From Barnesiella sp. (GTDB lineage Bacteria > Bacteroidota > Bacteroidia > Bacteroidales > Muribaculaceae), in the NCBI GenBank assembly GCA_014800945.1, contig JAAVFD010000010.1, forward strand, positions 54,656-118,655: 64,000 nucleotides of DNA, in the 5' to 3' direction. A program made the translations under genes and the position numbers. Below the pieces are notes generated by a model that was given only the letters and a program-made list of their open reading frames with translations, was not told where the DNA came from and did no database searches. Every line of letters starts with the position of its first letter. Within the stretch, counting starts at the first letter, position 1. Shown here in pieces: positions 10,715 through 63,029 of the stretch.

Positions 10715-10813
10715 ACTACCACAAGCGGAAGTGCCAAATTAAAAGTTCTAAAAAATATGACGTGTGTGATATTTTTGAATAACTTTACGACAAAGAATAA
10801 AATTATAGATGTT

Positions 10814-11239: not shown

Positions 11240-11240
11240 G

Positions 11241-39783: not shown

Positions 39784-42630
39784 ATGGCTAAAAAAATCAA
39801 GGAAAAACAATATAATGCCGACTCTGAGGGTGCTATAAGCGCAAAGGGAGTCAGGGTTAACAATCTCAAGAATATTGATGTAGAAATTGAGCGTGGGGCA
39901 ATGACGGTTGTCACCGGAGTGAGTGGCAGCGGCAAGTCAAGTCTTGCATTCGATACCTTATACGCTGAAGGGCAACGACGCTATGTGGAGAGTCTGAGCT
40001 CTTACGCAAGGCAGTTTTTAGGCAGAATGCCCAAGCCCGAGGCGGAGTGGATTAAAGGGCTTCCACCGGCTGTTGCAATTGAGCAAAAGGTTACAACGCG
40101 AAATCCCAGAAGCACTGTTGGCACTGCTACGGAGATTTACGATTATCTGCGTCTGCTTTTTGCGCGCATCGGCAGAACATATTCTCCGGTGTCGAATCAG
40201 GAGGTTAAGAAGCATACCGTTGAGGATGTGGTGGATACTCTTTACACTTTTCCGGAAGGTACTAGATATGCTGTTACTGCGCCGGTTACCATGCCTGAAA
40301 AGCGTCGCCTCGTGTCACAACTTGACGTCTATCTTAAAGGTGGATATAGCAGGCTGCTGAAGGAGGGCAACTTCGTGGATATAGCCTCGCTGATTGCAGA
40401 GGAACCGACTGATGCTACCGGACTGGAGTTGGTTGTTGACCGAAGCATGGTCAAGGATGATGCCGATGAGCGCAGCCGTCTTGCTGAGAGTGCAGAAGCT
40501 GCTTTTTTTGAGGGGCATGGAGTTCTCAATCTTTGGATTTGGGTACCCGGGGAGGAGAATCCGCGTCGGCTGGAATTTTCAAAAAGGTTTGAGGCTGACG
40601 GAATTGAGTTTGTTGAACCGAGTGAGATGATGTTCAACTTCAATAACCCTTACGGAGCGTGTCCGGTGTGTGAGGGTCTCGGGCAGGTTGAAGGTATTGA
40701 TGAGAGAAAAGTAGTGCCGGATACCTCTAAAAGCGTTTATGAAGGTGCGGTTGCTCCTTGGCGAGGCGAAAAACTCGGGCTGTGGAAGCAGGAGCTGATA
40801 GCTATGGCGGATTCGGTGAATTTTCCGATACACAGGGCTTACAATCAACTGACACGTGCTCAGAAAGATTTTCTGTGGCATGGTGGAAATGGATTTGAAG
40901 GCATAGACGGTTTCTTCCGCATGGTGGATGCTAACCGACACAAGGTGCAGTATTCTGTCTTAAAAGCACGCTATCGCGGACGCACGACCTGTATGGAGTG
41001 TCACGGTTCGCGTCTCAGAAAAGATACCGAGTATGTCAAGATTGATGGTAAATCTATCAGCGACCTCTGCAATACACCTATTGAAAAACTGGCAGACTTT
41101 TTTGATAATCTCAGGCTTGACAATCACGATGAAAAGATTGCAGGGAGAATACTTACAGAAATTAAATCACGCCTGGCTTATTTGAAAGATGTGGGTCTCG
41201 GTTATCTAACTCTTAGCCGTCGTGCGGCTTCACTTTCCGGTGGTGAGAGTCAGCGAATTAATCTTGCAACATCTCTCGGCTCACCTCTAATGGGCTCTAT
41301 GTATATTCTTGATGAGCCGAGTATCGGACTGCATCCGCGTGACACCGGCAGGCTCGTCAATGTGATGCATAAACTGCGCGATGCCGGAAACACTGTGATT
41401 GTTGTTGAGCATGATGAGGATATTATGCGTGCTGCGGACAATCTTATTGATGTTGGTCCGGATGCAGGTAGTCTCGGAGGAGAAATAGTTTGGTCAGGAA
41501 AGGTGAACGATATTTCTGCTTCTACACCGGGGCATACAGCGGAGTTTCTTACCGGCAGAGATTCCATTCCGGTTCCTTCTTCAAGACGTAAATGGCGCGA
41601 TTCCATAGTAGTAGAAGGTGCCCGGGAGAATAATCTTAAGAATATTGATGTAAAGTTCCCTCTTGGGGTTCTGACGGCGGTTACCGGTGTCAGCGGTAGC
41701 GGTAAATCAACCCTTGTGCGCTCCATTCTCTATCCGGCCCTTCTCGCTCATCTGGACATTGTGCCATCCGGTGATAAACGTGTTACAGGTGAATTCAGTG
41801 CTCTTAAGGGAGACCTTTCGAGAATCTGCGGTGTGGAACTGGTTGATCAGAATCCGCTCGGCAGGTCATCGCGTTCTAATCCTGCGACTTACATGAAGGC
41901 ATTCGACGAAATTAGAAGGCTATATTCAGAGCAGCAGATGAGTAAACAGATGGGTTTCAAGCCCGGATATTTCAGCTTCAATGCCGAAGGCGGTCGCTGT
42001 GAGGAGTGCAAGGGTGACGGCACTCTAACTATTGAGATGCAGTTTATGGCTGACATAACTATGGTCTGTCCGGAATGCGGAGGTAAGCGATACAAGCGTG
42101 AGGTTCTTGAAGTTCTGTATCGGGGAAAAAGCATTTCCGATGTGCTGGATATGACTGTTGCCGATGCGATTGACTTTTTCGGCAGTGCTCCTGAAGGGTC
42201 GCTTACCGAGAAAAAGATAGTAAAACTGCTGAAGCCGCTTTATGACGTGGGTTTAGGTTACATAAAGCTGGGGCAGAGCACATCCACTCTTTCAGGTGGA
42301 GAGAGCCAGCGCCTTAAACTTGCAGGATACTTCGCATCAGAGAAGATGCAACCCACACTGTTTATACTTGATGAACCCACCACCGGGCTGCATTCGGCTG
42401 ATATATCAAGGCTTATGAAGTCGCTTGACGCGCTTGTGTCACGAGGACACACAGTTATAGTTATCGAGCACAATCTTGATGTTATAAAATCCGCCGACTA
42501 TGTGATAGACCTCGGGCCGGAAGGAGGAGAAGCCGGCGGAAACATTGTAGCCTCCGGCACCCCCGAGGATGTAGCTGCCAACCCGTCCTCCCTTACCGGT
42601 GCCTACCTCCGCCCCAAACTCTCCTCCTGA
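39784..42630 (+). CDS. uvrA: Excinuclease ABC subunit A
   Basis: A 948-residue DNA damage sensor of nucleotide excision repair. Two ATPase modules have Walker A GVSGSGKSS (45-53) and GVSGSGKST (about 635-643), two signature motifs LSGGESQRI and LSGGESQRLKL, and Walker B regions YILDEPSIGLHP and FILDEPTTGLHS. Zinc-finger cysteines appear in CPVCEGLG, CMECHG, CEECKGDGT and CPECGGKRY. I use ATG 39784 rather than the TTG at 39775, since the -7 element covers that region. Confidence 0.97.
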   Translation: MAKKIKEKQYNADSEGAISAKGVRVNNLKNIDVEIERGAMTVVTGVSGSGKSSLAFDTLYAEGQRRYVESLSSYARQFLGRMPKPEAEWIKGLPPAVAIEQKVTTRNPRSTVGTATEIYDYLRLLFARIGRTYSPVSNQEVKKHTVEDVVDTLYTFPEGTRYAVTAPVTMPEKRRLVSQLDVYLKGGYSRLLKEGNFVDIASLIAEEPTDATGLELVVDRSMVKDDADERSRLAESAEAAFFEGHGVLNLWIWVPGEENPRRLEFSKRFEADGIEFVEPSEMMFNFNNPYGACPVCEGLGQVEGIDERKVVPDTSKSVYEGAVAPWRGEKLGLWKQELIAMADSVNFPIHRAYNQLTRAQKDFLWHGGNGFEGIDGFFRMVDANRHKVQYSVLKARYRGRTTCMECHGSRLRKDTEYVKIDGKSISDLCNTPIEKLADFFDNLRLDNHDEKIAGRILTEIKSRLAYLKDVGLGYLTLSRRAASLSGGESQRINLATSLGSPLMGSMYILDEPSIGLHPRDTGRLVNVMHKLRDAGNTVIVVEHDEDIMRAADNLIDVGPDAGSLGGEIVWSGKVNDISASTPGHTAEFLTGRDSIPVPSSRRKWRDSIVVEGARENNLKNIDVKFPLGVLTAVTGVSGSGKSTLVRSILYPALLAHLDIVPSGDKRVTGEFSALKGDLSRICGVELVDQNPLGRSSRSNPATYMKAFDEIRRLYSEQQMSKQMGFKPGYFSFNAEGGRCEECKGDGTLTIEMQFMADITMVCPECGGKRYKREVLEVLYRGKSISDVLDMTVADAIDFFGSAPEGSLTEKKIVKLLKPLYDVGLGYIKLGQSTSTLSGGESQRLKLAGYFASEKMQPTLFILDEPTTGLHSADISRLMKSLDALVSRGHTVIVIEHNLDVIKSADYVIDLGPEGGEAGGNIVASGTPEDVAANPSSLTGAYLRPKLSS

Positions 42631-42664
42631 ATCTCCACCAATCGAGATCTGACTTATTAAATGT

Positions 42665-42705
42665 AGCCTTTCTATCTGTCATAAACCATGAAAGATAGGA
42701 GGGCT
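42665..42705 (+). terminator. Imperfect hairpin after uvrA
   Basis: AGCC plus CTATCT pair with AGATAG plus GGCT across a 16-base loop with a small bulge, followed by a pyrimidine-rich tract (TTCTCACTTATTTTTT). It separates uvrA from the defence-type operon. Confidence 0.5.
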
Positions 42706-42722
42706 TTCTCACTTATTTTTTA

Positions 42723-42730
42723 TATCTTTG
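42723..42730 (+). promoter_or_regulatory. -7 promoter element of the defence-type operon
   Basis: TATCTTTG about 35 bases before the methyltransferase start. It is the only good promoter-like element seen for the five coupled genes 42765-50227. Confidence 0.6.
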
Positions 42731-42764
42731 TATTCATCTACCACCAAATTTTCTTATTAAACAG

Positions 42765-45512
42765 ATGGCAAAGAAGACCAAATCATATTCACAGGTTGAA
42801 GCGACCGATGCATTGGAGCAACTCGGGCAACGTGGCACGTCGGCTCCGGAGTTTATATATGAGTTACTCCGTATTTTCGTCGGATACGGTGACGGTCAAA
42901 TACGAAGGACTAAAGAGGGTGCCGGTAATCTTGCCAAAGATGGTGAAACAGTACTAATAAAGAATCTTGTCGCATATCGCGACGCTGCCGTTAATACTCT
43001 TGCCGGCGATTGCTCGAAGATGTATGATGTTATCAACGCTATGCGCGATGACGCCAAGATTGCCAAACAATCGCCACGTCTATACATTACAAGTAATGGC
43101 GTCCATGTTGTAGCTTACGACCCTAAGGAAAATGATTGGTACGAGAACAGTATCGAATTGCTATGGAAAGACTTTGAGTTTTTCACTCCACTTGCGGGTA
43201 TTGAAAAAATTCAGTTTACCGAGGAGGCAGAGGCGGATGTTAAATCGGCTGAACTGATGGCGAAACTATTTGATGATATCCGTCGCTACAACAATATCCG
43301 TGACCCGCAGACAGTCCATGCCCTCAATGTGTTTATGTCGCGTCTGCTTTTCTGTTTCTTCGCCGAAGATACAGGTTTGTTTCCCGAAGAAAATCTTTTT
43401 ACCAATACGCTTAGAACCCATACAAAAGAGGACGGCTGTGATCTCCGCGAGTTTATTGATCGAGCATTCTTTGCAATGTCAACCAACGACGAGAACGCAC
43501 TGGATACATTACCAGAACTATACAAATCTTTTCCATACGTCAATGGTGGCTTATTCAAAGAACGTTTCCCTATTCCCGTTCTCTCTCGCCGTGCCCGTAC
43601 TTTGATAATAAACTGCGGTGAATATAATTGGAAGGAGATTAACCCTGATATTTTCGGCTCGATGATTCAGGCTGTAATTACTCCTGAGCAACGTGCCGGA
43701 CTGGGTATGCACTATACCTCTGTGCCGAATATTGAAAAAGTTATCCGCCCACTATTCCTTGACGCTCTTGAGGAAGAATTTGAGGATGCTTGTGCCGAGG
43801 CTCGCGAAAAGATGGCGAAGAAGATTAATCAAGAACGTGCCTCACAGCGTCTGCGCAACTTGCTCACACGCTTGTCGCAGATTAAATTCTTTGACCCCGC
43901 TTGCGGTAGCGGTAACTTTCTTATTATCTCCTATAAGAGATTACGCGAACTCGAAATCCGAATTTGGAAAGCCCTGCGCGATATAACAGGGGTAGCGATT
44001 CTGCCGTTCCCTAATATCACGCTTACGCAATTCTACGGCATCGAACTTGATGAATATGCTTGCGACACCGCTACACTCTCACTTTGGCTTGCCGAGCATC
44101 AGATGAACGTCAAGTTTAAGGAAGAACTCTACGTACTTCCCGAATCATTGCCCCTGAAACCCTCGGGCCATATCGTCTGTGGTAACGCTTGTCGTCTTGA
44201 CTGGAATACAGTCTGCCCCCACACTCCCGACGATGAAGTGTACATCATGGGAAATCCGCCGTATCTAGGCAGTCGAAATCAGGATGAATCGCAAAAAGAG
44301 GATGGGGCTATTGCTACTAACAACTTGAAAGGTTATAGAAAACTCGATTATATAGCCTCATGGTTCTATAAGGCAGCTCTTTATATAAAGGGTACAAGAT
44401 GTATGTCTGCATTTGTTACTACTAATTCAATTTGTCAAGGCGAACAAATCGAAATTCTATGGCCTAAAATCTTTGAATTAGGTATAGAAATTGCATTCGC
44501 ATATGAAAGTTTCAAGTGGAGCAATAATGCAAAATACAATGCCGGAGTAACGGTTAATATCATAGGACTAAGAAACGTGTCTGCATTAGACAAGTTTATT
44601 TATTCTCTAAGTTCGAAATCTAAAGTCAGCGACATTTCTCCACGGCTGTCAGACAAAAAAGAAATATCCGTCACCAAAGCGACTAAACCAATTTCTGACT
44701 ATCTACCTGAAATGCGTCGAGGTAATATGCCTAACGACCATGAGTATCTTAGACTCAGTTCCTCTGAAAGGAATGAGATATTAGACAAGTATCCAGATGC
44801 AGCGAAGTTCATTAGATTACAGATCGGTGCTGATGAACTTATCAATGGAATTGAGCGATATTGCTACTGGATATCGGATGAGGACTTAGTCAAAGCTAAA
44901 GAAATTCCCCAGATCCGTACCGCTATCGATAATACATATAATTATAGAATAAATAGTAAAGATGTAACCCTTCATGCTCAAGCGAACAAATCCCATCAGT
45001 TTAGGGAGTTCTTTTCCTGCGGAAAAAACTCTCTAGTCATTCCTATAGTTTCTTCCGAGCGACGAGAAATTATTCCAATTGCGTTTGTTCCGGAGCATAC
45101 CATTGTCCCTAACTCGGCTCAAGTTGTCTATGATGCTAACTTACTTGTGTTTGCTTTGATTAATTCAAGATTACATAATGTTTGGGTTAGAGCCACAGCT
45201 GGTAGGCTTGAAAATCGATTTAGATATTCGATTTTTCTATGTTATAACACCTATCCTGTTCCTAAGCTGACAACAGCCGAGAAAGCGGAATTAGAGCGTT
45301 ATGCTCAAAATATTCTCAATATACGCGACGAGAACTTTGATATGACGCTTGGCGAAATGTATAATCCGGAATCTATGCCGGAGGATCTTCGCGAGGCTCA
45401 CCATCAGCTTGACCTCGCCGTGGAGCGCATCTATCGACCAGAGCCTTTCCCCTCCGATGAAGAACGCCTCGAACACCTCTTCAAACTCTACTCCAAAATG
45501 ACAAAGAAATGA
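42765..45512 (+). CDS. MmeI-like N6-adenine DNA methyltransferase, no visible nuclease motif
   Basis: A 915-residue protein in the architecture of class I SAM-dependent MmeI-type enzymes: N-terminal domain (about 1-150), helical spacer (160-350), methyltransferase (about 370-560), target-recognition domain (about 600-850) and helical C-terminus. SAM motif DPACGSGNF is at 377-385 and the catalytic NPPY at 497-500, which points to N6-adenine. In MmeI-type enzymes the N-terminal domain carries a PD-(D/E)XK nuclease; here the matching region (RRTKEGAGNLAKDGETVLI, LVAYRDAAVNT) shows no D...ExK set, so this is probably a methyltransferase only. The TRD part (about 44280-45245) looks more AT-rich than the flanks. 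Its stop overlaps the next gene by 4 bases (ATGA). Confidence 0.88.
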   Translation: MAKKTKSYSQVEATDALEQLGQRGTSAPEFIYELLRIFVGYGDGQIRRTKEGAGNLAKDGETVLIKNLVAYRDAAVNTLAGDCSKMYDVINAMRDDAKIAKQSPRLYITSNGVHVVAYDPKENDWYENSIELLWKDFEFFTPLAGIEKIQFTEEAEADVKSAELMAKLFDDIRRYNNIRDPQTVHALNVFMSRLLFCFFAEDTGLFPEENLFTNTLRTHTKEDGCDLREFIDRAFFAMSTNDENALDTLPELYKSFPYVNGGLFKERFPIPVLSRRARTLIINCGEYNWKEINPDIFGSMIQAVITPEQRAGLGMHYTSVPNIEKVIRPLFLDALEEEFEDACAEAREKMAKKINQERASQRLRNLLTRLSQIKFFDPACGSGNFLIISYKRLRELEIRIWKALRDITGVAILPFPNITLTQFYGIELDEYACDTATLSLWLAEHQMNVKFKEELYVLPESLPLKPSGHIVCGNACRLDWNTVCPHTPDDEVYIMGNPPYLGSRNQDESQKEDGAIATNNLKGYRKLDYIASWFYKAALYIKGTRCMSAFVTTNSICQGEQIEILWPKIFELGIEIAFAYESFKWSNNAKYNAGVTVNIIGLRNVSALDKFIYSLSSKSKVSDISPRLSDKKEISVTKATKPISDYLPEMRRGNMPNDHEYLRLSSSERNEILDKYPDAAKFIRLQIGADELINGIERYCYWISDEDLVKAKEIPQIRTAIDNTYNYRINSKDVTLHAQANKSHQFREFFSCGKNSLVIPIVSSERREIIPIAFVPEHTIVPNSAQVVYDANLLVFALINSRLHNVWVRATAGRLENRFRYSIFLCYNTYPVPKLTTAEKAELERYAQNILNIRDENFDMTLGEMYNPESMPEDLREAHHQLDLAVERIYRPEPFPSDEERLEHLFKLYSKMTKK

Positions 45513-46375
45513 ATACCCCATTTTCTCAAAGAAACGGTTATGTTAAGGCAGAAAAAGTTTTAATTAGAGAACAACTAACTGGAACAGTTTTAAATGCTGT
45601 GATGAACGCTACCTCTGATATGTTCGTAAGATTAAACAATCCTAACATCACGAATTTGGGTGAGAGACTTATCAATGAATTTAAGCTGAAGTATCTTAAT
45701 TTAAGATATGAGCAGATGCAATATTATAATGGTCCGATAGAATACATAGACGATGAAGAAAAAGAATGGTATTATCGTCTCGATGTCATTGAATGGGTCA
45801 TTAGTCAGCTTAGACTATTTATTCATGACATGTATCAAAACTCCCAAATATCAAATCGTTATGTAAAGAATGCTTTTGAGTCAGTTCTTGAAAATTATAT
45901 TAATTCATTAAATAAAGAATTAGAACGCCTGAATTACGGATATCGAATAATTGGTGATGTTTTTGTCGAAATTACATCTTCATCCGAAATGGCCGTAATT
46001 CAGGAATCATTGCAGGAAGCTGACACTAATACTGTCACACATTTGCAAGAAAGCCTTAAACTGCTATCTCCTAGTAATCAGGAGTTGAGTACACGCAATG
46101 CAATAAAAGAAGCCATAAGTGCAGTTGAGGTAACCGCTCGCCAAATAACAAACACGAGTACTCTTGATGAAGCATTTAAAAAGTTGAGAGATATTCATCC
46201 AATGATAAAACTCTCAATGGAGAAACTATATCACTATACTAATCAGAAAGATACCGGTATTAGGCATGGTTGGATGGAACAAAGCTATGAACCAACAATT
46301 AACGAAGCCATCTTCGTGCTTGTCACAAGTTGCTCATTTATAAATTATCTAAATAAAGTTTGTTGTAATGCATAA
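45509..46375 (+). CDS. AbiJ-NTD4/HEPN-like abortive-infection type protein
   Basis: A 288-residue soluble protein. The N-terminus has FSQRNGY (5-11) and LTGTVLNAVMNATSDMF, like the N-terminal domain of AbiJ-family phage-exclusion proteins. The C-terminus (RNAIKEAISAVEVTARQIT, IHPMIKLSMEKLYHYTNQ, GIRHGWMEQ with Arg252-His253, VLVTSCSFINYLNKV) resembles the HEPN-like C-terminal region of the same families, where the Arg/His pair belongs to the candidate RNase site. Similarity is by eye. The gene is more AT-rich than the methyltransferase core. It overlaps the methyltransferase by 4 bases and the next gene by 8, so it is built into the operon. The inferred role is growth arrest or RNA cleavage on infection. 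Confidence 0.65.
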   Translation: MNTPFSQRNGYVKAEKVLIREQLTGTVLNAVMNATSDMFVRLNNPNITNLGERLINEFKLKYLNLRYEQMQYYNGPIEYIDDEEKEWYYRLDVIEWVISQLRLFIHDMYQNSQISNRYVKNAFESVLENYINSLNKELERLNYGYRIIGDVFVEITSSSEMAVIQESLQEADTNTVTHLQESLKLLSPSNQELSTRNAIKEAISAVEVTARQITNTSTLDEAFKKLRDIHPMIKLSMEKLYHYTNQKDTGIRHGWMEQSYEPTINEAIFVLVTSCSFINYLNKVCCNA

Positions 46376-47084
46376 AGAAATGAAGAAACAATTAGCCTTT
46401 TGGTTGGCGTTAATCTCATTTGTAATCTCTATTATTACGATGACACTTTTCTTTATAAAGGTGTCACCGAATAGTATTGTTGACGGTTTGACTTTTATTG
46501 GTGTCATAGCTGCTTTTATTGGGATAAGCGTAACTCTCTTAATCGGTTATCAAATATATAATGCCGTAGAAATAAAGAATCGGTTGGACGAGATTACTGT
46601 ATTACGCTCTGAAATTGAAACTATCAAACAAAAGACCAATACACAACAAAATGAATTATATGAGGCAATTCATATTTTGCAATCTCGCGATCCTCAATTA
46701 AGAAATACATATGATCCTAACGTATTCCTGCATTTTCTCGCTGCTATACCATTTTCTTTATCATTGCCTGATAAAAAGGGTGGTTATAAATTCCTTTTAG
46801 ATGAATTGGAAGAAGATATGATGCATATTGTATTACCGTCATTCGGTAGCGGAACAAAGGATGTATTTGAAAAAGGAGTCAAACACTTAAAAGACTTATA
46901 CAAAGAAACTGATGAAGCAATACGAAAGCATGAAAATTATGCTTTTATAAAAGATCGGTATGAGGATTTAATGACTAAGTTTGACACTCGCTTGAGTATC
47001 ATTTCGCAAATGAAAAATCCATCCTTAATATACCTTGATATGATTAGTGGCGAAGAACCCGAATTTAAAAGTAGGAATAAATAA
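46368..47084 (+). CDS. Two-TM coiled-coil membrane protein
   Basis: A 238-residue protein with two N-terminal TM segments (about 10-31 LAFWLALISFVISIITMTLF and 40-62 GLTFIGVIAAFIGISVTLLI), then a coiled coil (about 66-105, EIKNRLDEITVLRSEIETIKQKT-like heptads) and a cytoplasmic helical domain. ATG 46368 overlaps the AbiJ-like gene by 8 bases; ATG 46380 is a possible alternative. No known family. The topology is like membrane partners of abortive-infection proteins, so a membrane sensor or anchor for the AbiJ-like protein is a hypothesis. The helicase gene starts 3 bases after its stop. Confidence 0.75.
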   Translation: MHKEMKKQLAFWLALISFVISIITMTLFFIKVSPNSIVDGLTFIGVIAAFIGISVTLLIGYQIYNAVEIKNRLDEITVLRSEIETIKQKTNTQQNELYEAIHILQSRDPQLRNTYDPNVFLHFLAAIPFSLSLPDKKGGYKFLLDELEEDMMHIVLPSFGSGTKDVFEKGVKHLKDLYKETDEAIRKHENYAFIKDRYEDLMTKFDTRLSIISQMKNPSLIYLDMISGEEPEFKSRNK

Positions 47085-47087
47085 GAT

Positions 47088-49058
47088 ATGACTAACCTTG
47101 TTGAAGTACAATATGCCCAAACGGGCAAATCGAGCAATACCGATAATCTCGGTATGCGTGAGATGCAAGCTATGGTCTATGCACAGCGTCATCGTCAGCA
47201 CTTGCTTGTAAAGGCTCCACCTGCATCGGGCAAAAGCCGCGCCATGATGTTCGTGGCTCTCGATAAACTCGCAAATCAAGGTGTGAGAAAGGTTATCGTT
47301 GCTGTTCCGCAGCAGAATATCGGTCGTAGTTTCAATGATACTCCACTGAAGAAATTTGGATTTTTTGAGGATTGGCGCGTGGCTCCGTATTGGAATCTAT
47401 GCATGGCAGCCGGAAGTGAGAACTCCAAAAAGTCGATTGTCCGAGAGTTTCTTGATCACCCAACTGCGACCAAACTTGTCTGCACACATGCCACTCTTCT
47501 TAACTCGCTCAATGGCATTGACGCAAGAAAACTTGACAATGTGTTCTTCGGTATCGATGAGTTTCATCACGGCTCGGCTGATGAGGACAACCGTCTCGGC
47601 ACTCTCATTCGACGACTTCTCAACGAGACATCGGCTCATATTCTTGCCATGACCGGTTCATATTTCCGAGGCGACGCTGTCCCTGTTATGCGTCCTGAAG
47701 ACGAGGCTATGTTTCAACCGACAATTAACTATAATTACTATCAACAATTAAACGGTTACAAGTGGTTAAAAAGTCTCGGCATCGGTTACAGCTTTTTCAA
47801 AAGCAACTATCTAACCGCTATCCCTGACGTTCTTGACACGACAAAGAAAACTCTTATTCATATTCCGCAACCCAACAGCAAGACCGGGGCGTTTATGAAT
47901 AAGCACGACCAGGTAGCTGAGATTATCAAGTATGTCGGAGAGATTGAAAGTCAGGATTATAATAATTGCATCTATAATGTACGAACTGCTGACGGAAGAC
48001 TTCTTAAAGTCGGTAACTTGGTAGAGGATAAAGCCGAGCAGAGAGCTCTTTTACAGTCTTATCTGCAACGCATGAATAGCCGCGATTCTCTTGATATACT
48101 TATAGCACTCGGTACTGCCAAAGAGGGTTTTGATTGGGAATGGTGCGAGCATTGTATCACAATCGGTATCCGTGCATCGCTTACCGAGGTCGTTCAGATC
48201 ATCGGTCGTTGTACCCGCGACTGTGAGGGTAAAACTCATGCGCAGTTTACCAATCTCATTCCTTGCCCAGATGCGGCGCAAGATGATGTTTCAATGGCGG
48301 TCAACGATTTCTTGAAAGCCATCTCCGCCTCATTGCTCATGGAGCAGGTTATGGCTCCCAAATGGAACTTCAAGACTAAAATTGATGATGAGGAGAAGCC
48401 CGAAGAACCGATACCGGGTGAGGATGATCATGTAATAGAAGTAAAGGGTTTGCCTACTCTAAATGAAAAGACCAAGGCTATAGTTGAAAATGACCGTGAT
48501 ACTTTGGTTGCCACCACACTCTCTGACAAGAATATCCGTGAGGCAATCATCGGTGAGGGCATGGCTGAAATGATTACTGAGGTCTATATCCCCAAAATTA
48601 TCCGTGATACGTATCCCGACCTGAACGAAGAAGAAACCGATGCAGTGGCAAATCACACCATCCTGACAATTGCTATGCAAGGAGAACAAGTTACAGTGGA
48701 TGATTCAGGTAATAAATTTATCAAGATTGCCAACAAGTTTGTAAATCTCAACGACCTTGATATCAATCTTATTGCCGAGATAAATCCCTTCCAACGAGCT
48801 TACGAGGTAGTCAGCAAATCGCTAACCCCCGAAGTTCTACGCACCATTCAGTATGCTATAGAGGATAAACGCTCCGAGAAACTGACCGATGAAGAAGCTA
48901 TTTTACTCTTTACTAAATATCTTCCTAAGTGGCGAGAGGAAAACCCGGGTAAAACAAAACCGGAGATTACCGATAGCGACCCATTAGCCCGAAGAATCGC
49001 TATGGCTATTGAACACCTCAGAAACCTTAAACGTCAGAGATTAGCACAGCAACGATGA
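47088..49058 (+). CDS. SF2 DEAD/DEAH-type helicase of the defence-type operon
   Basis: A 656-residue superfamily 2 DNA translocase/helicase. Motif I (Walker A) is APPASGKS at 43-50, motif II is IDEFHHG with DEFH at 157-160, motif III-like MTGSYFRGD, motif V-like GTAKEGFDWEW near 343, and motif VI QIIGRCTR at 370-377. The helicase core ends near residue 410; the last 240 residues are helical, acidic and not recognised and may dock the nuclease or methyltransferase. The DEFH box and compact core resemble restriction-type translocases rather than RNA helicases. It overlaps the GIY-YIG gene by 4 bases (ATGA). Confidence 0.88.
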   Translation: MTNLVEVQYAQTGKSSNTDNLGMREMQAMVYAQRHRQHLLVKAPPASGKSRAMMFVALDKLANQGVRKVIVAVPQQNIGRSFNDTPLKKFGFFEDWRVAPYWNLCMAAGSENSKKSIVREFLDHPTATKLVCTHATLLNSLNGIDARKLDNVFFGIDEFHHGSADEDNRLGTLIRRLLNETSAHILAMTGSYFRGDAVPVMRPEDEAMFQPTINYNYYQQLNGYKWLKSLGIGYSFFKSNYLTAIPDVLDTTKKTLIHIPQPNSKTGAFMNKHDQVAEIIKYVGEIESQDYNNCIYNVRTADGRLLKVGNLVEDKAEQRALLQSYLQRMNSRDSLDILIALGTAKEGFDWEWCEHCITIGIRASLTEVVQIIGRCTRDCEGKTHAQFTNLIPCPDAAQDDVSMAVNDFLKAISASLLMEQVMAPKWNFKTKIDDEEKPEEPIPGEDDHVIEVKGLPTLNEKTKAIVENDRDTLVATTLSDKNIREAIIGEGMAEMITEVYIPKIIRDTYPDLNEEETDAVANHTILTIAMQGEQVTVDDSGNKFIKIANKFVNLNDLDINLIAEINPFQRAYEVVSKSLTPEVLRTIQYAIEDKRSEKLTDEEAILLFTKYLPKWREENPGKTKPEITDSDPLARRIAMAIEHLRNLKRQRLAQQR

Positions 49059-50227
49059 TAAACTGGGACAAAGAACTTGAAAAGATTTTTGAAGACCCGC
49101 TTTTGGCTGATGTTACTGCGCCGCGCAAGCGGACGACATCTAGCGACCGCCTTGTTGCTGGTTTCCATGAGATTCTGGTCTTTTACGAAACCAATGGCCG
49201 ACTACCCGAAGACACGCCTGAAGAGGCCTCACTTTTCCATAAATGGAAAGGAATTCTGAAAAGTGGGAAGAAGATTGAGCGTTGCCGTCCATTTGATGAC
49301 CTCGGTATTCTTCCTCAGCCAGCCCAGGCGGTGGATCAGCGTGAGCTTACAGAGGAAGAACAGATAGAATCAATCCTTAACGACCCATTGCTCGCTGATA
49401 TTGAAAGCGATGCGGACCTAGGACTCTTTGACATTCCTGAATATATGCGCCAACGTCTTGATGCTCGAAAAGAAGCTGAGTATGTTGGTAAACGTAGGCC
49501 GTGTGAAGATTTTGACAAATATGCTGATGGCTTTAAGGAGATTCATGAAGGACTGAAATCAGGAACTCATAAATTGGTCAAATTCAGTATTAAACATCTA
49601 AAAGTAGGTAGATACTTCGTTGAAGATGGCATAATTGGCTATCTTGCTGCTTTTGAAGATGAAGGTGTTAATAAGCATGGAGACCGTGACGGTCGTACCC
49701 GGGTTATTTATGAGAATGGTTCTGAATCTGACATCAAATATAAAACCATCACTAAAAATCTTTCAGTTACTGGCTATTCCGTGATTGACTGCACAGATAT
49801 AACGGATGAAGATTTTGAAAAATACTTCACCCTCACAGATAAGGATGTAGAAAGCGGTACTATTTATGTGTTGCGTTCAAAATCTACTCGTCCGGAGATT
49901 GCAGCAATCAAAGACCTCTATAAAATTGGCTTTACCGTTACCTCTGTAGAGAGTCGCATTGCTAATGCTAAGAATGAGCCGACCTATCTTTGTTCAGATG
50001 TCGAAGTTGTTGCAACTTGGAAAGTCTATAATGTAAAATCATCGACGTTTGAGGCGCTTATTCATAAGCTGTTTGCCCCGGTACAATTACAGATAATTGT
50101 TGATGGTCAAAGACCAAAGGAATGGTTTATAGTGTCTTTCAGGATAATTGAGGAAGCAGTAAAAGCGATAATATTGGGAAAACAGATAGAGTATAACCCG
50201 GATCTACAATGTCTTATTTATCGCTAA
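49055..50227 (+). CDS. GIY-YIG nuclease (T5orf172/MUG113-like) of the defence-type operon
   Basis: A 390-residue protein. The C-terminal domain is a GIY-YIG nuclease of the T5orf172/MUG113 kind: GTIYVLRS (268-275, Tyr271), YKIGFT (289-294), conserved Arg301 in SVESRIANA, Glu333 and His337 in TFEALIHKLF, giving the full set of expected catalytic residues. The N-terminal 230 residues are helical and carry a repeated phrase DPLLAD at about 14-19 and 110-115, and a segment ending in a small beta domain. It is the last gene of the operon. It would supply the DNA cutting activity that the methyltransferase N-terminus appears to lack. Confidence 0.88.
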   Translation: MINWDKELEKIFEDPLLADVTAPRKRTTSSDRLVAGFHEILVFYETNGRLPEDTPEEASLFHKWKGILKSGKKIERCRPFDDLGILPQPAQAVDQRELTEEEQIESILNDPLLADIESDADLGLFDIPEYMRQRLDARKEAEYVGKRRPCEDFDKYADGFKEIHEGLKSGTHKLVKFSIKHLKVGRYFVEDGIIGYLAAFEDEGVNKHGDRDGRTRVIYENGSESDIKYKTITKNLSVTGYSVIDCTDITDEDFEKYFTLTDKDVESGTIYVLRSKSTRPEIAAIKDLYKIGFTVTSVESRIANAKNEPTYLCSDVEVVATWKVYNVKSSTFEALIHKLFAPVQLQIIVDGQRPKEWFIVSFRIIEEAVKAIILGKQIEYNPDLQCLIYR

Positions 50228-50313
50228 TGATATCGTTTATCTCGGAAATGGAGTAAACAGAAGAGGGGGGCTGAGCGTTGTTTTTGTTAGACAATTGAAT
50301 AAAACATCGCATT

Positions 50314-52110: not shown

Positions 52111-52725
52111 ATGAAAGCTGCTTTATTTGACCTTGACGGCGTGATAATTGATAGTGAACGACTTTACACAGTTTTTTGGGATGGGATAGAAAAGATTTAT
52201 CCCACTGGAATAGAAAATTTTGCTGTGGCAATCAAGGGATCTACACTACCTGAAATATTGTCGTTATATAAGTCAGATGAGGAGAGGGAAGATATTACAA
52301 GTCGTCTGCTTGATTTTCAGGATAATATGATGTTTCCTCTTATGCCGGGGGCAATGGAGTTTCTGAAAAAGTTGAAAGATAACGGGATACCGAGAGCGTT
52401 GGTGACGAGTAGTGACAGCCGCAAAATGGATTGTTTGTTCAAGCAGTTGCCTGAGTTGAAAGATATGTTTGATGTGATAATTGATGCATCTAAGGTCACG
52501 AAGTCGAAACCTGATCCTCAGGGGTATCTTCTTGCAGCGGAGGCACTTGGCGTTAATGCCGGTGATTGCGTGGTTTTTGAAGACAGCCTGAACGGTTTGA
52601 AGGCTGGTCGTGCGAGTGGTGCCAAAGTGGTTGGTCTGGCAACAACTTTGCCGGCAGCATCCCTGGAGGGTATGGCAGATTTGATTGTTGGTGGATGGGA
52701 TGAGGTTGAGGCTGAGGAACTTTGA
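52111..52725 (+). CDS. HAD-superfamily hydrolase, beta-phosphoglucomutase-like
   Basis: A 204-residue HAD phosphatase/mutase with the helical cap of subclass IA. Motif I is DLDGVIIDS with Asp7 and Asp9, motif II ALVTSSDS, motif III Lys in SKPDPQGYLLAA and motif IV VFEDSLNGLKAG. Substrate is unknown; YcjU/YvdM-like sugar phosphates are plausible. Its stop lies 5 bases from the stop of the converging DUF5009 gene. Confidence 0.9.
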   Translation: MKAALFDLDGVIIDSERLYTVFWDGIEKIYPTGIENFAVAIKGSTLPEILSLYKSDEEREDITSRLLDFQDNMMFPLMPGAMEFLKKLKDNGIPRALVTSSDSRKMDCLFKQLPELKDMFDVIIDASKVTKSKPDPQGYLLAAEALGVNAGDCVVFEDSLNGLKAGRASGAKVVGLATTLPAASLEGMADLIVGGWDEVEAEEL

Positions 52726-55399: not shown

Positions 55400-56221
55400 T
55401 TATTTGCCTTCCTCAACAAGAGAGGTGTAGAATTCAGAATATTTGTCCGCGTAATCTTCATTGCCGGTATAATCAAGAATCGGCTTGGAGAGTGACCGAG
55501 CGTATTCAATAAGCTCAGTATCAACATCGGGAGATGTAATTACCACAGCATCAGAATGAAGAATCGCAAGTTTATTTAATGCCGTGTTGTCGGCAGGCTG
55601 TGAACCAAGAATAGCAAGATCCTCTTCCGGGAACTGTAGGGATTTGAGCTTATCAATGAGTCGAGCATCGAGGGTGCCTTCAAATTTTTCCGGTCTTATA
55701 GAGAATACTATTTTGGATTTTGCGAGTGCCGGGTCATCCTGATACATTCTCTTGACATACATAGGCACGAGTGTAGAAATCCATCCAGTGCAGTGTATCA
55801 CAGCAGGATCCCAGCGGAGTTTCTTCACTGTTTCAATAACTCCTTTGGCAAAAAACATCATTCTCTCATCGTTGTCATGAGGAGAGATAACAGTTTCAAG
55901 TTCTTTAGCACCCGCACGCTGGAAATAGTCATCATTATCGATGAAATACACCTGCATTCTCGAGGGTTGCAAAGTTGCCACCTTAATAATTAGAGGGTGG
56001 TCACTGTCATCAATTATAATATTCATACCGGAAAGGCGAATAACTTCGTGCAGCTGGTTTCTGCGCTCGTTTATACAGCCATATTTGGGCATGAATGTGC
56101 GCACCTCATATCCTTTTTCCTGCACTTTCTGAGGAAGTTCCCTTCCATAAAGTGACAAAGGAGATTCAGGGAGATAGGGTGCGATCTCCTGAGAGATGTA
56201 GAGTATTTTTTTGTTTTCCAT
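55400..56221 (-). CDS. Glycogen/starch synthase-like GT5 N-terminal half
   Basis: A 273-residue protein that matches only the N-terminal Rossmann half of GT5 glycogen synthase: ILYISQEIAPYLPESPLSLYGRELPQ (where GlgA has the KxGG ADP-binding region, here changed), VRTFMPKYGCINERR, QVYFIDNDDYFQRAG and VIHCTGWISTLVPMYVK. The C-terminal GT1-like half with the nucleotide-sugar site is absent, so it is probably not a complete glucosyltransferase. Such short forms are regular in Bacteroidetes, so this is a family trait rather than a local truncation. Confidence 0.88.
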   Translation of the reverse strand: MENKKILYISQEIAPYLPESPLSLYGRELPQKVQEKGYEVRTFMPKYGCINERRNQLHEVIRLSGMNIIIDDSDHPLIIKVATLQPSRMQVYFIDNDDYFQRAGAKELETVISPHDNDERMMFFAKGVIETVKKLRWDPAVIHCTGWISTLVPMYVKRMYQDDPALAKSKIVFSIRPEKFEGTLDARLIDKLKSLQFPEEDLAILGSQPADNTALNKLAILHSDAVVITSPDVDTELIEYARSLSKPILDYTGNEDYADKYSEFYTSLVEEGK

Positions 56222-56256
56222 AACCTTAGGAGTGTTACTTTACAGTTTTGGTAGTG

Positions 56257-56264
56257 CAAAGGTA
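56257..56264 (-). promoter_or_regulatory. -7 promoter element of the GT5-DUF4270 unit
   Basis: TACCTTTG on the minus strand, 36 bases before the GT5 half-protein start. Confidence 0.55.
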
Positions 56265-56360
56265 CGAATAATTTTTGGATTTCAGCGCATTGATTGAGTA
56301 ATAGGTCATATAACGGTCTTAAAAAAACTTATAATGGTGTGGAATATGGTCAAGTTGGTG

Positions 56361-56368
56361 TATCTTTG
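56361..56368 (+). promoter_or_regulatory. -7 promoter element of the dsbD cluster
   Basis: TATCTTTG 24 bases before the first DsbD-related gene, divergent from the GT5 promoter. A long run of closely spaced plus-strand genes follows to 62580. Confidence 0.6.
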
Positions 56369-56391
56369 CAAAAAAAATCAAAATAGCGATT

Positions 56392-56853
56392 ATGCGTAGA
56401 TTATTACTATCACTATTACTTATCAGCTGTGGCTTTGTTGCCGGGCTGTGTCAGGCTCCGGGTGAGTCACCGGTAAAATGGCAGGTTACAGTAAAAATGA
56501 ATGGTGCAGAAAAAGGAACTGTTGTTTTCAAAGCACGAGTACAGTCCGGCTGGCATCTTTATGGAATGAACCTTCCGAAAGGAGGTCCAAAGTCAACAGC
56601 AATAGACATGAGTGAGAGTACTGGTGTAGAATTCACAACCCCTCTAAAGCCTGACAGGGCACCGTTAAAAGTGCATGATGATATGTTCGGGCTTGATTTG
56701 ACCTGGTGGGACAGTGACATAGCATTCCGCCGTGACTTCAAGGTGAAAAATAAAGCAAATGCGAGAATAGCCGGTAAAATCAGCTATATGAGTTGTAATA
56801 ACGAGACCTGTTCTCCTCCTAAAACTCAGTCTTTTGACAAAATTATCAAATGA
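56392..56853 (+). CDS. Stand-alone DsbD N-terminal domain protein
   Basis: A 153-residue exported protein: signal peptide MRRLLLSLLLISCGFVAGLCQ, then one DsbD N-terminal-like beta domain (VKWQVTVKMNG, WHLYGMNLPKGGPKSTAID, GKISYMSCNNETCSPP). The last motif with two Cys matches the alpha-DsbD redox pair. It is clearly a paralogue of the N-terminal domain of the next gene and overlaps it by 4 bases (ATGA), so it may be an extra electron acceptor in the periplasm. Confidence 0.88.
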   Translation: MRRLLLSLLLISCGFVAGLCQAPGESPVKWQVTVKMNGAEKGTVVFKARVQSGWHLYGMNLPKGGPKSTAIDMSESTGVEFTTPLKPDRAPLKVHDDMFGLDLTWWDSDIAFRRDFKVKNKANARIAGKISYMSCNNETCSPPKTQSFDKIIK

Positions 56854-58823
56854 TATCTGCTATGAGAAAGCTTATATTGTGGTGCACGATGTTTTTTGCC
56901 GGTGTTTTGGCTGCCGGTGCTCAGATAGTTTCGCCCATAGTCTGGAATGTGTCCTCTTCCATGACAACCGATACTGAAGGTGAAATAGTTTTTTCAGCAT
57001 CAATTGAAGACGGCTGGCATCTTTATGGGCTACATTTGCCCGAGGGTGGCCCCAAAGCCACATCCATAGTGTTTGACAAGCTCGAGGGGCTGACACTTGT
57101 AGGAGAAATAACACCATCGGCGGCTCCTATAGAGAAGGTTGATATGGTGTTTCATCTCAACCTCAACTGGTGGGAGAAAGATGTGAATTTTGTTCAGAAA
57201 TTTAAGGTTGAAGGTGAAAAAGGATATTCCGCATCCGGTGTCATAACTTTTCAGGGATGCAATGATGGCAGCTGTATTCCACCGAGCCGAGAGCCTTTCG
57301 ATGTGAGTTCACCCGGCTATATATCATCTCCTTCCGAGGAAAAAGCAACAGGGGATGTAGCCATTGAAGCAGCTCAAACAGTAAGCGACAGCAAATGGTG
57401 GGCTCCTGTGACATTTCCGGAAGGTGAGAGCGGTGCCCATTCAATAGCAGATTCCTCATGGTGGTACATCTTCATCTGGGGTTTTGTGGGTGGTTTGATT
57501 GCCCTCCTGACTCCTTGTGTCTGGCCAATGATTCCGTTGACTGTTAGTTTCTTCCTCAAGAAGAATGGTTCTAAAGGAAAATCAGTGAGAGATGCCATGA
57601 TGTATGGTGCAGGTATCATAGTCATTTATCTGGTGCTCGGTCTTGCAATAACCTTGATTTTCGGGGCAAGCAAATTGAATGACCTCGCTACAAATGCGGT
57701 GTTTAATCTAATATTCTTCCTGCTGCTGGTGGTGTTTGCCATATCATTCTTTGGCGCTTTTGATATAAAGTTGCCTTCAAAATGGAGCAACGGAGTGGAT
57801 AGCAAAGCGGAGAAAACAACCGGTCTGATAAGCATTTTCTTTATGGCGTTTACCCTTGTGCTGGTGTCATTCTCATGTACCGGACCAATTATCGGAACCC
57901 TTTTGGTAGAAGCTGCTTCGGTAGGTGATATCACCGGCCCTGCCATAGGCATGGGTGCTTTTGCTCTTGCTCTTGCAATACCGTTCACACTCTTTGCAAT
58001 TTTCCCGTCCTGGCTTAAGGAGATGCCCCGTTCCGGCGGATGGCTCAATTCAGTCAAGGTGGTTTTAGGATTTCTGGAACTGGCTCTATCGCTTAAATTC
58101 CTTTCGGTAGCGGACCTTGCTTATGGCTGGGGAATTCTTGACAGAGAGGTGTTTGTTTCCCTCTGGATAGTGATATTCATCCTGTTGGGAATGTATCTTC
58201 TCGGTAAAATCAGATTCAGCCACGATTCTCCTCTTGAATATGTGTCTATAGGCAGATTCTTTATGGCACTTATATCCTTCAGTTTTGCAATGTATCTTGT
58301 TCCCGGTCTATGGGGAGCTCCGCTTAAGAGTGTGAGTGCCTTTGTTCCCCCTCTTTACACTCAGGATTTCAACCTTTATGCCGGCGGTCAATTCAAGGAG
58401 TTTGACGACTATGACGAAGGAATGCGTTTTGCCGCAGAATCAGGTCGCCCGGTGCTTATTGATTTTTCCGGATATGGATGCGTTAACTGCCGCAAAATGG
58501 AGGGTGCGGTATTTGATACTGAGGTGATAAGCGACATTATCAAGAAAGATTTCGTGCTCATCAAGCTTATGGTTGATGACAAGCAGGCTCTTGAAGCGCC
58601 GGTCACTGTAGTTGAAAACGGTAAGAATGTCAAACTCACTACAGTGGGTGAGAAGTGGAGCTATTTGCAACGTTCAAAATTCGCTGCCAACTCTCAACCC
58701 TATTATGTGATGCTCGATAACTCCGGCGATGCTCTTGCCGCTCCATATTACTATGATGAGAATGTGGAGAAATTCGGCAACTGGCTTGAGTTGGGTGTTG
58801 AACATTATGGCAACAAAAGATAA
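56850..58823 (+). CDS. dsbD: Thiol:disulfide interchange protein DsbD
   Basis: A 657-residue inner-membrane electron carrier that passes cytoplasmic thioredoxin electrons to the periplasm. Order: signal peptide (about 1-24), DsbD N-domain with GCNDGSCIPP, a CcdA-like eight-TM core with cysteines in LLTPCVWPMIPLT and VSFSCTGPIIG, and a C-terminal thioredoxin-like domain with CVNC (544-547) in DFSGYGCVNCRKME. The full set of cysteine pairs is present. Confidence 0.95.
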   Translation: MISAMRKLILWCTMFFAGVLAAGAQIVSPIVWNVSSSMTTDTEGEIVFSASIEDGWHLYGLHLPEGGPKATSIVFDKLEGLTLVGEITPSAAPIEKVDMVFHLNLNWWEKDVNFVQKFKVEGEKGYSASGVITFQGCNDGSCIPPSREPFDVSSPGYISSPSEEKATGDVAIEAAQTVSDSKWWAPVTFPEGESGAHSIADSSWWYIFIWGFVGGLIALLTPCVWPMIPLTVSFFLKKNGSKGKSVRDAMMYGAGIIVIYLVLGLAITLIFGASKLNDLATNAVFNLIFFLLLVVFAISFFGAFDIKLPSKWSNGVDSKAEKTTGLISIFFMAFTLVLVSFSCTGPIIGTLLVEAASVGDITGPAIGMGAFALALAIPFTLFAIFPSWLKEMPRSGGWLNSVKVVLGFLELALSLKFLSVADLAYGWGILDREVFVSLWIVIFILLGMYLLGKIRFSHDSPLEYVSIGRFFMALISFSFAMYLVPGLWGAPLKSVSAFVPPLYTQDFNLYAGGQFKEFDDYDEGMRFAAESGRPVLIDFSGYGCVNCRKMEGAVFDTEVISDIIKKDFVLIKLMVDDKQALEAPVTVVENGKNVKLTTVGEKWSYLQRSKFAANSQPYYVMLDNSGDALAAPYYYDENVEKFGNWLELGVEHYGNKR

Positions 58824-59602
58824 TGAGTACATCAGAAGAGAAAGCTGAATCACTCCGCAAAGTTATAGAGACTCTTGACATCCTGAGGGTGAAATGCCCT
58901 TGGGATGCCAAGCAGACTAACGAGAGTCTGCGCACCAATACAGTTGAAGAGGTGTATGAACTTTGCGACGCTCTGATTAAAGAGGATGATGACAACATAA
59001 AGAAGGAACTTGGCGATGTGCTCCTTCATGTATTGTTTTATTCAAAAATCGGTGAGGAGAAAGGAAAATTTGATATAGGGGATGTGGCGGAAGCCCTTAA
59101 TTCCAAGTTGATTTTCCGTCATCCTCATGTGTTTGGTGACGCTAAAGCCGAAACTGCCGGAGAGGTGTCACAGAATTGGGAACAGATTAAGCTGAAAGAG
59201 AAAGGCGGCAACCGGACAGTTCTTGCCGGGGTGCCGGATGCTCTACCTTCAATTATTAAAGCATTCCGTATTCAGGAGAAAGCGGCAAATGTCGGTTTTG
59301 ACTGGGCTGATCGCCGAGATGCCTGGAATAAGGTGCGTGAGGAAAGCGATGAACTTGCATCTGAAATAGAGCGGATGGATGCGCAGAAAATGGAGGAAGA
59401 GATGGGCGATTTGCTGTTCAGCATCATTAATGTGAGCAGGCTTTATGGTATCAACCCGGAGAATGCGCTTGAAAAGACAAACAGGAAATTTATAAAACGC
59501 TTTAACTACATAGAAAGCAAAGCTAAAGAAAGAGGTGTATCCTTAAACGATATGACTCTTGACCAAATGGATGAATTGTGGAATGAAGCAAAATCTCTTT
59601 AA
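58823..59602 (+). CDS. mazG: Nucleoside triphosphate pyrophosphohydrolase MazG
   Basis: A 259-residue all-alpha NTP pyrophosphohydrolase with two tandem MazG domains. The first carries KCPWDAKQTNESL, EEVYELCDAL and KKELGDVLLHVLF (EExxE..ExxD metal site); the second carries EESDELASEIE and EEMGDLLFSIINVSR. It hydrolyses NTPs and can lower (p)ppGpp or damaged nucleotides in other bacteria. Starts within the dsbD stop (TAATG). Confidence 0.95.
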   Translation: MSTSEEKAESLRKVIETLDILRVKCPWDAKQTNESLRTNTVEEVYELCDALIKEDDDNIKKELGDVLLHVLFYSKIGEEKGKFDIGDVAEALNSKLIFRHPHVFGDAKAETAGEVSQNWEQIKLKEKGGNRTVLAGVPDALPSIIKAFRIQEKAANVGFDWADRRDAWNKVREESDELASEIERMDAQKMEEEMGDLLFSIINVSRLYGINPENALEKTNRKFIKRFNYIESKAKERGVSLNDMTLDQMDELWNEAKSL

Positions 59603-60017
59603 TATATTAATAGCGCTATGTTTGTCCTTTACTTATTTAAGTATGGACGGAAAATGCCTGAAAGTTAAGTCTTCCAGGAGTACCGGAACTCCGGTGCTGA
59701 TATGTGACAGTGTGGATTTCCGTTCCGACCTGACAAGAGTTTACGGAAAACTTAAAGGCGCTCCACACACATCTCACCGAATAGATGCAGTGAAATTGCA
59801 GTCAAGCGGTGTGCCGGCTACAGACATAGACGGCGTTGATATCAAACGTTGGTTTCAGTGGGAGGAAGATGGTGAGATACCGGTTGAGATAGATTTTCCT
59901 CCTATGAAAGAACGCTCGTCTCTTATAATAGAAGCTGCAACCCCGAGAGAAACAGCAATATGGACAATAGAAACAGTGCCGACGCGTGCTGCTAAACGGA
60001 AAAAGAACACTAAGTGA
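59583..60017 (+). CDS. Small secreted protein of unknown function
   Basis: A 144-residue protein with a signal-like N-terminus (MKQNLFNILIALCLSFTYLS). I use ATG 59583, which overlaps mazG by 20 bases; the TTG at 59559 would break the signal peptide. The mature part is beta-like (LICDSVDFRSDLTRVYGKL, HRIDAVKLQSSG, DGEIPVEIDFPP) and ends in a basic tail (TRAAKRKKNTK). Its stop overlaps the GTG start of topB. No family recognised. Confidence 0.8.
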   Translation: MKQNLFNILIALCLSFTYLSMDGKCLKVKSSRSTGTPVLICDSVDFRSDLTRVYGKLKGAPHTSHRIDAVKLQSSGVPATDIDGVDIKRWFQWEEDGEIPVEIDFPPMKERSSLIIEAATPRETAIWTIETVPTRAAKRKKNTK

Positions 60018-62056: not shown

Positions 62057-62580
62057 AGCATAATCCGGACGAAAGATTTCCTATTGTTGAGGAAGATGGT
62101 ACAGTGATAGGCAGTGCTACAAGAGCAGAGTGTCATGGCGGATCCATGCTTCTGCATCCTGTGGTTCATCTTCATGTGGTTACAAAGGATGGGAGTGTTT
62201 TTCTTCAGAAAAGGTCTATGACCAAAGATATTCAGCCGGGAAAATGGGATACGGCTGTCGGAGGCCATGTTGATTGTGGCGAAACAATAGCGCAGGCGGT
62301 TGCTAGAGAAGCAATGGAGGAGCTGGATATTGATGCTTCTGATGCGAAATTGCTAAAGCGTTATGTATTCACCAGCTCTGTTGAGCGCGAATTGGTCAAC
62401 ACACATTATATAGTAGTGGATACTGAGAGTTTTAATCCGGTTCCAGCTACAGACGAGGTGGATGATGCAAGATTTTGGTCAAGAAAGGAGATAGAGGAAG
62501 CATTAGGAAAAGATATTCTGACACCCAATCTGGAGATGGAATTGAAAAACATACTCCCGCTGATATCGACAGACATTTGA
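62053..62580 (+). CDS. NUDIX hydrolase
   Basis: A 175-residue NUDIX protein. The Nudix box runs from Gly71 with GHVDCGE and continues AREAMEEL (85-91), giving the Gx5Ex7REUxEE pattern. The middle part VHLHVVTKDGSVFLQKRS and the context YVFTSSVERELVNTHYIV resemble the isopentenyl-diphosphate isomerase-like/YfcD-type group. The start is GTG 62053, overlapping the topB stop by 4 bases (GTGA), the second GTG-type coupling in a row. Substrate unknown. Confidence 0.9.
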   Translation: MKHNPDERFPIVEEDGTVIGSATRAECHGGSMLLHPVVHLHVVTKDGSVFLQKRSMTKDIQPGKWDTAVGGHVDCGETIAQAVAREAMEELDIDASDAKLLKRYVFTSSVERELVNTHYIVVDTESFNPVPATDEVDDARFWSRKEIEEALGKDILTPNLEMELKNILPLISTDI

Positions 62581-62805
62581 CACTTTCAGCCTGTTCCCCG
62601 ATATTTGTTATTAGACCGAGGCGATAATAATATTGAGCATAATGTGAGTAAAAATAGTTTTAGGTCAAATATTACTTTAATAGAAATGACATGTAAACTA
62701 AATAAATTTAGCATCGTACTGCATCTCTCTGGCGCATGTTGCTATGTGTCAGTCATGATGCCGCAGCGCTGCTCCATCAACACAAGACGAAATCTATACT
62801 AAGAT

Positions 62806-63027: not shown

Positions 63028-63029
63028 AT

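Follow-up and report, generated by a model that had tools for sequence, protein, structure and literature searches.

A DnmA-YeeB-YeeC-type restriction-modification core with exchangeable cargo in a five-gene operon of Barnesiella sp.

Introduction

Do five closely packed genes on one strand make up a single defence system? The question is raised by an operon of Barnesiella sp. in contig JAAVFD010000010.1 (assembly GCA_014800945.1), of which a stretch of 64,000 nucleotides, referred to here as the window, was analysed. At window positions 42765 to 50227 lie genes for an MmeI-like methyltransferase, an AbiJ/HEPN-like protein, a protein with two transmembrane (TM) segments, a superfamily 2 (SF2) helicase and a GIY-YIG protein. 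A preliminary description, made from the letters of the sequence, had taken these five genes for one new system, transcribed from a single promoter and corresponding to no named set. The analysis presented here gives a different answer: the operon is a known restriction-modification (RM) core, formed by genes 1, 4 and 5, with exchangeable cargo, genes 2 and 3, and is not a five-gene system.

A known restriction-modification core

The re-derived list of open reading frames (ORFs) agrees exactly with the coordinates first given, the five plus-strand ORFs being joined, in order, by an overlap of 4 bases, an overlap of 8, a gap of 3 and an overlap of 4. The proposed identities were likewise borne out by Pfam and PADLOC matches and by hydrophobic segments. 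Gene 1 (42765..45512) encodes a DnmA/YeeA-type N6-adenine methyltransferase of the MmeI family, with a target-recognition domain and with the nuclease motif lost; it contains five MmeI Pfam domains (PF20464-PF20467, PF20473), matches the MmeI structure 5hr4 with an E-value of 3.6e-256, and is matched by PADLOC as RM Type IIG. Gene 4 (47088..49058) encodes a YeeB-type SF2 helicase (Pfam DEAD/ResIII), and gene 5 (49055..50227) a YeeC-type T5orf172 GIY-YIG protein (Pfam T5orf172/MUG113) with a predicted extra N-terminal half.

By their domains, motif loss and gene order, genes 1, 4 and 5 are the published DnmA-YeeB-YeeC cluster. For Bacillus subtilis, the passages of PMC9973331 and PMC7261158 that deal with dnmA-yeeB-yeeC describe an MmeI-homologous methyltransferase that lacks the nuclease motif and has downstream of it first a helicase gene and then a T5orf172/GIY-YIG gene, and state that this order is kept in other bacteria. 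The helicase of the Bacillus mediterraneensis cluster (L116) is 47% identical to that of the window. The remark that no named system has this gene set is incomplete, since the core trio was already in print. The pair formed by the AbiJ and TM genes was found in none of 141 other helicase loci.

Helicase relatives span several phyla, with matches in 20 of 393 genomes of the same order, Bacteroidales (three of them weak), and in 263 of 72,556 plasmid records, 118 of which are predicted to be conjugative. The order methyltransferase-helicase-GIY was found in 70 of 81 loci, these being the window and the best 80 of at least 558 confirmed helicase relatives; since the 80 are the best of that number, the locus counts describe the nearer relatives. 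Given that the helicase is matched in 20 of 393 genomes and that the core order is kept in 70 of 81 loci, the arrangement reflects more than chance. Of the expectation that the neighbourhood would be conserved, what holds is that the core three travel together, while all five do not.

Two variant arrangements were observed among the helicase loci. At L025:3635-8583, a place shared with L050, the helicase and GIY genes stand without a nearby methyltransferase, and SIR2_2, HerA (DUF87) and AlbA_2 genes lie upstream of the pair. In L028, the GIY gene appears as two adjoining ORFs (10722-10991 and 10993-12216, in flipped coordinates), and short first GIY pieces occur at other loci as well.

The preliminary description had also proposed that modification is separated from cleavage, and comparison of the methyltransferases agrees with this. 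Among 24 MmeI-type loci from genomes without a match to the operon-type helicase, D-x9-E-x-K is present at residue 65 or 73 in 19, and x10 spacing occurs in a further two, so that the nuclease motif is kept in 21; the remaining three ORFs start downstream of the motif region. In 63 cluster-type proteins (the window and 62 others), no D or E within the first 100 window positions is conserved at 60% or more except E at position 14 (40/63), and the strict nuclease pattern appears in two of the 63, elsewhere in the sequence. When the window methyltransferase is aligned to the motif, the D falls opposite a gap, and R and A stand in place of E and K.

The GIY-YIG residues G268, Y271, K290, G292, R301, E333, H337 and E356 of gene 5 are invariant in 50 of 50 aligned sequences, as expected from the complete catalytic set noted earlier. 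This alignment comprised the window and 49 of the 80 other loci, and was restricted to ORFs of 330-520 aa that score above 250 bits; 55 loci had a long nearest GIY-matching ORF above 250 bits, six of which were left out. The helicase motifs GKS (48-50), DE (157-158) and QIIGR (370-374) are invariant in 15 sequences. Because the methyltransferase motif is lost, whereas the GIY-YIG residues and helicase motifs are invariant, modification is split from cleavage, and the best candidates for cutting, if any takes place, are genes 4 and 5, the pair that had been proposed as the restriction part.

Two of the MmeI-type loci from helicase-free genomes, L307 and L312, have ORFs of 777-786 aa that start downstream of the nuclease motif and whose scores lie nearer to the cluster type than those of the remaining 22 loci. 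These are possibly another split RM arrangement.

A cargo slot between methyltransferase and helicase

Of the 81 loci, 71 have a methyltransferase upstream of the helicase and 80 have a GIY-matching ORF downstream of it. Where the methyltransferase is missing, the upstream sequence is no longer than 2.4 kb at nine of the ten loci; the tenth, L050, has no methyltransferase nearby. Between methyltransferase and helicase, 33 of the 71 gaps are shorter than 100 nt and the other 38 measure 532-4357 nt, with none at 100-500 nt. The helicase-GIY gap, measured to the nearest GIY-matching ORF, runs from -227 to 92 nt, with 0 of 80 above 92 (Fisher p 2.5e-16 for one junction against the other, in loci that share ancestry). 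This nearest ORF is short or low-scoring in about 25 loci, although a GIY-matching ORF that scores above 250 bits exists at 76 of 79; by score, the methyltransferase is broken or partial at several occupied loci (L045, L064, L082). In 45 loci from viral contigs, 11 of 35 measurable methyltransferase-helicase gaps are at least 300 nt long, some beside a broken methyltransferase, as against none of 39 helicase-GIY gaps. Extra genes therefore enter at one of the two core junctions only. In the window, this slot reaches from the methyltransferase stop to the helicase start (45513..47087, plus strand), a replaced region delimited by breaks in DNA similarity and reflected in the bimodal gap.

The window slot holds two cargo genes. 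The first, gene 2 (45509..46375), encodes a protein with an AbiJ_NTD4 domain (PF18863; 56.3 bits against a cut-off of 34, E 6.5e-15) that matches the model of the PADLOC candidate PDC-S32 (E 7e-53) and has a HEPN fold at its C-terminus. The HEPN catalytic motif is Rx4-6H; in the alignment of gene 2 homologues, R252 and H253 are invariant and stand side by side, and N197, K200 and E201 are likewise invariant. The second, gene 3 (46368..47084), encodes the two-TM protein, with hydrophobic segments at residues 5-23 and 41-59 and, according to the preliminary description, a coiled coil; it reaches the cut-off of no Pfam family. PADLOC, which had been suggested as a check, thus has matching models for genes 1 and 2, and for gene 3 yields weak matches only, one of them SLATT-like; all of these are matches to its models, not calls by its system rules.

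At other loci, the slot holds other genes. Pfam searches of 60 cargo ORFs out of 66 (those dropped being near-duplicates from L059 and L060, ORFs that are short or overlap others, and a fragment of a helicase), with the 25 commonest families listed per library, found AlbA_2 in eight, RhuM in seven, Fic in three, YhcG and AbiJ_NTD4 in two each, and many singletons; PADLOC matches included PDC-S23, PDC-S05, PDC-S02, PDC-S31 and others. The eight nearest relatives in the set of 80 (L038-L045, helicases 70-92% identical) all have occupied slots, and none contains the AbiJ-TM pair. Among the 141 other helicase loci, which were pooled from two overlapping sets (e.g. L025/L050, L031/L073) and are for that reason not all independent, a single locus, L044, was found to have AbiJ, and four loci (L023, L043, L046 and L068) a member of the TM family, these four having been included in building the TM model; the single window sequence matches L023 and L068 only.

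One cargo family of 243-248 aa is common to L022 (9231-9977, minus strand), L038 (4153-4893), L041 (6672-7418) and L045 (8261-8992), with copies 37-76% identical. It has no Pfam match, nor any PADLOC match for the three copies scanned, and is a candidate for a new effector family.

Comparison at the DNA level locates the exchange close to the gene ends. Against L022, L038, L039, L040 and L042, the match to the window ends at 45505-45514, at most 7 bases from the methyltransferase stop, and is back from 47079-47093, around the helicase start at 47088; between the two breaks these five loci have no DNA match to the window and hold other genes. The breaks are less neat for L041 (45515 and 47063), and for L068 the match stops at 45508 and resumes only at 47151. 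A quick helicase tree of 71 rows requires at least 16 changes between occupied and empty slots, and pairs that are close in the tree (L044/L045, L099/L117, L076/L102) differ from each other; only the occupied/empty count was used, as cargo classes had been labelled by eye, with each unclassified cargo its own class. The cargo genes also differ from the core in GC content, at 0.338 (AbiJ) and 0.325 (TM) against 0.414-0.450.

Genomic setting of the operon

The assembly from which the window comes (G000, listed as 82% complete) contains a second haplotype on contig C4 (L334), which is about 98% identical over window positions 34667-57341 and 56000-63900. The two parallel haplotypes probably represent a strain mixture. 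Similarity between them breaks at 42627 and is back at 50250, such that the whole operon segment (42628..50249) is absent from C4; between uvrA and the NDH-2 gene, C4 has instead a single minus-strand gene of 849 aa (L334:7976-10525) with a weak MG2-domain match. A same-genus genome, G782, has a related gene of 857 aa at the same place (L335:2441-5014, plus strand). The operon is single-copy in the assembly, and its two scanned flanking genes, encoding UvrA and NDH-2, are ordinary. Judged from this haplotype pair in a likely mixed-strain assembly, the operon is itself probably mobile. The haplotypes differ at a second place, where L334:13091-14337, about 1.2 kb with two ORFs of 296 and 95 aa, is an insertion seen in L334 alone, at window positions of about 52680-52715.

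The single promoter claimed for the operon could not be upheld. Reading by eye upstream of gene 1 found one match, TATCTTTG (42723..42730, plus strand), to TANNTTTG, which we take to be the consensus of the Bacteroides -7 element, and no clear -33 element; internal promoters may be present as well.

Proposed mechanism and alternatives

How might core and cargo act? We consider it probable that the operon combines a DnmA-YeeB-YeeC restriction-modification core with a two-gene defence cassette in the methyltransferase-helicase junction, with the HEPN protein as a back-up. In such an arrangement, DnmA would place N6-methyladenine on self DNA as a mark; where the mark is absent, the YeeB helicase would load or translocate in a DnmA-dependent, Type I-like manner, and the GIY-YIG domain of YeeC would cut. 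The AbiJ-NTD4/HEPN protein may be a dormant RNase by which the cell is arrested should the core fail or be blocked; the back-up role suggested for it earlier is plausible. The two-TM protein may be a second effector or an anchor for the AbiJ protein. The marking and restriction steps are proposed from gene families and conservation, and the AbiJ and TM steps by analogy. The precedent for the guard, PrrC in EcoprrI, and the proposal that HEPN proteins act with RM systems come from passages of PMC3710099 and PMC12707154. The weakest step is the physical coupling of cargo to core, as opposed to mere co-expression, which is unproven and weighs against this reading.

The main rival begins from that step. 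It holds that cargo and core are independent, with AbiJ and TM as autonomous abortive-infection genes that sense phage directly and for which the operon is promoter and vehicle; we give it somewhat less than an even chance. It draws on viral contigs, where no RM gene was detected near any of 42 AbiJ homologues (L209-L250), as judged by similarity to 14 query proteins and core profiles within at most 5 kb per side. AbiJ-NTD4/HEPN is apparently also a free-standing gene of prophage-like viral contigs. Moreover, AbiJ is found without TM and TM without AbiJ, and the slot accepts unrelated families.

Against this independence, both families recur in or near RM operons. AbiJ homologues occur in six of the 393 same-order genomes, the window counted. 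At the five other loci, the gene stands once between the hsdM and hsdS genes of a Type I operon, once behind an N6 methylase and a specificity gene, and once at a distance of 7 nt from a Type ISP enzyme; at the remaining two, no RM gene was detected nearby. When these five were joined with 12 phylum-level PDC-S32 matches, several of them partial and missed by the window's own AbiJ sequence, RM genes were found in the fetched stretch at 7 of 17 loci as against 3 of 27 control regions (obtained out of 40 sought, at fixed positions, not random, and some short), a modest difference (one-sided Fisher p 0.027) obtained with RM queries taken from the test loci, of which L141, L142, L144, L146, L149, L151 and L156 match their own sequence. 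A Pfam re-check covered these seven as well as L177, L178 and L179. The TM family is present in 17 of the 393 genomes, with many weak matches; among 11 contexts centred on the TM protein are three Type I operons and one case next to an N6_N4 methylase. The use of only one of the two core junctions is also against independence.

A second rival sees the operon as a relic, its core being a defunct RM system retained to regulate genes by methylation and its cargo passing freight. B. subtilis DnmA has been argued to be of this kind in passages of PMC9973331 and PMC7261158, which also report that the cluster gave no protection against three phages; for restriction of unmethylated DNA, too, the result in that species was negative. 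However, the core catalytic residues are conserved in the aligned sequences, the ORFs are intact in the window, and deletion of the dnmA and yeeB homologues of Vibrio crassostreae, as cited second-hand in PMC9973331, increased sensitivity to some phages. We regard the relic as unlikely. That the five genes form an obligate system, as their overlapping or nearly abutting layout on one strand might suggest, is very improbable, given that the AbiJ-TM pair was found in 0 of 141 other helicase loci, that relatives with helicases 70-92% identical hold other cargo, and that 33 of 71 loci hold none.

An extension of the proposal of a core with a back-up cassette is offered only tentatively, as we think it rather doubtful: the junction might be a 'guard socket', into which unrelated effectors (AbiJ/HEPN, RhuM, AlbA_2, YhcG, Fic, two-TM) are recombined at the gene ends, to be restrained by one restriction complex. 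If so, one RM core would arm many different suicide modules, and the two-TM proteins, like those of 243-248 aa, would make up new effector families.

Novelty and significance

The core and the AbiJ cargo family have already been published, as has the notion of embedded defence genes. A description of the methyltransferase-helicase junction as a cargo slot was not found in open-licence PubMed Central, though the 2024 preprint on embedded defences may include it. The operon represents a restriction core that is widespread and too little studied, in which exchangeable defence genes have one fixed place, and this slot offers a way to study how layered bacterial immunity is assembled. Because close cores hold different cargo and the sister haplotype is without the operon, cargo could be swapped in a constant background, and such swaps could tell whether the RM complex has its state sensed by the embedded genes or only carries them along. 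The slot also names effector candidates by the same logic as the PDC families.

Comparison with known systems

Class 1 DISARM likewise has a separate methylase and helicase, and gene 1 has a match to DrmMI (E 1.6e-32) that is much weaker than the one to Type IIG; no match to drmA, drmB or drmC was found among the five proteins (for gene 1, among the best 25 of 33 families). Type IIG/IIL MmeI resembles gene 1 in its methyltransferase, spacer, target-recognition and C-terminal domains, but gene 1 is without the PD-(D/E)xK nuclease motif, and cutting must fall to other subunits. The PADLOC PDC-S candidates, which the relevant passages of PMC12988326 and PMC12255303 trace to 'guilt by embedding' in the preprint of Payne et al. 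2024, include gene 2 (PDC-S32) and same-slot cargo elsewhere (PDC-S02, S05, S23, S31); gene 3, in contrast, has only weak PADLOC matches and the 243-248 aa family none in the three copies scanned. PrrC, the anticodon nuclease embedded in the Type Ic RM system EcoprrI, is likewise a HEPN-fold protein within an RM operon. Here, AbiJ-NTD4 takes the place of its ABC ATPase, and the likeness would suggest a guard role by analogy. Finally, the B. subtilis DnmA-YeeB-YeeC cluster, for which PMC7261158, in the passage concerned, credits a Type I-like RM proposal to Morgan et al. 2009, differs from the window operon in phylum and in the absence of the two extra genes, and shares with it the order and strand of a nuclease-less MmeI-family methyltransferase, an SF2 helicase and a T5orf172/GIY-YIG protein, as set out in the relevant passages of PMC7261158 and PMC9973331.

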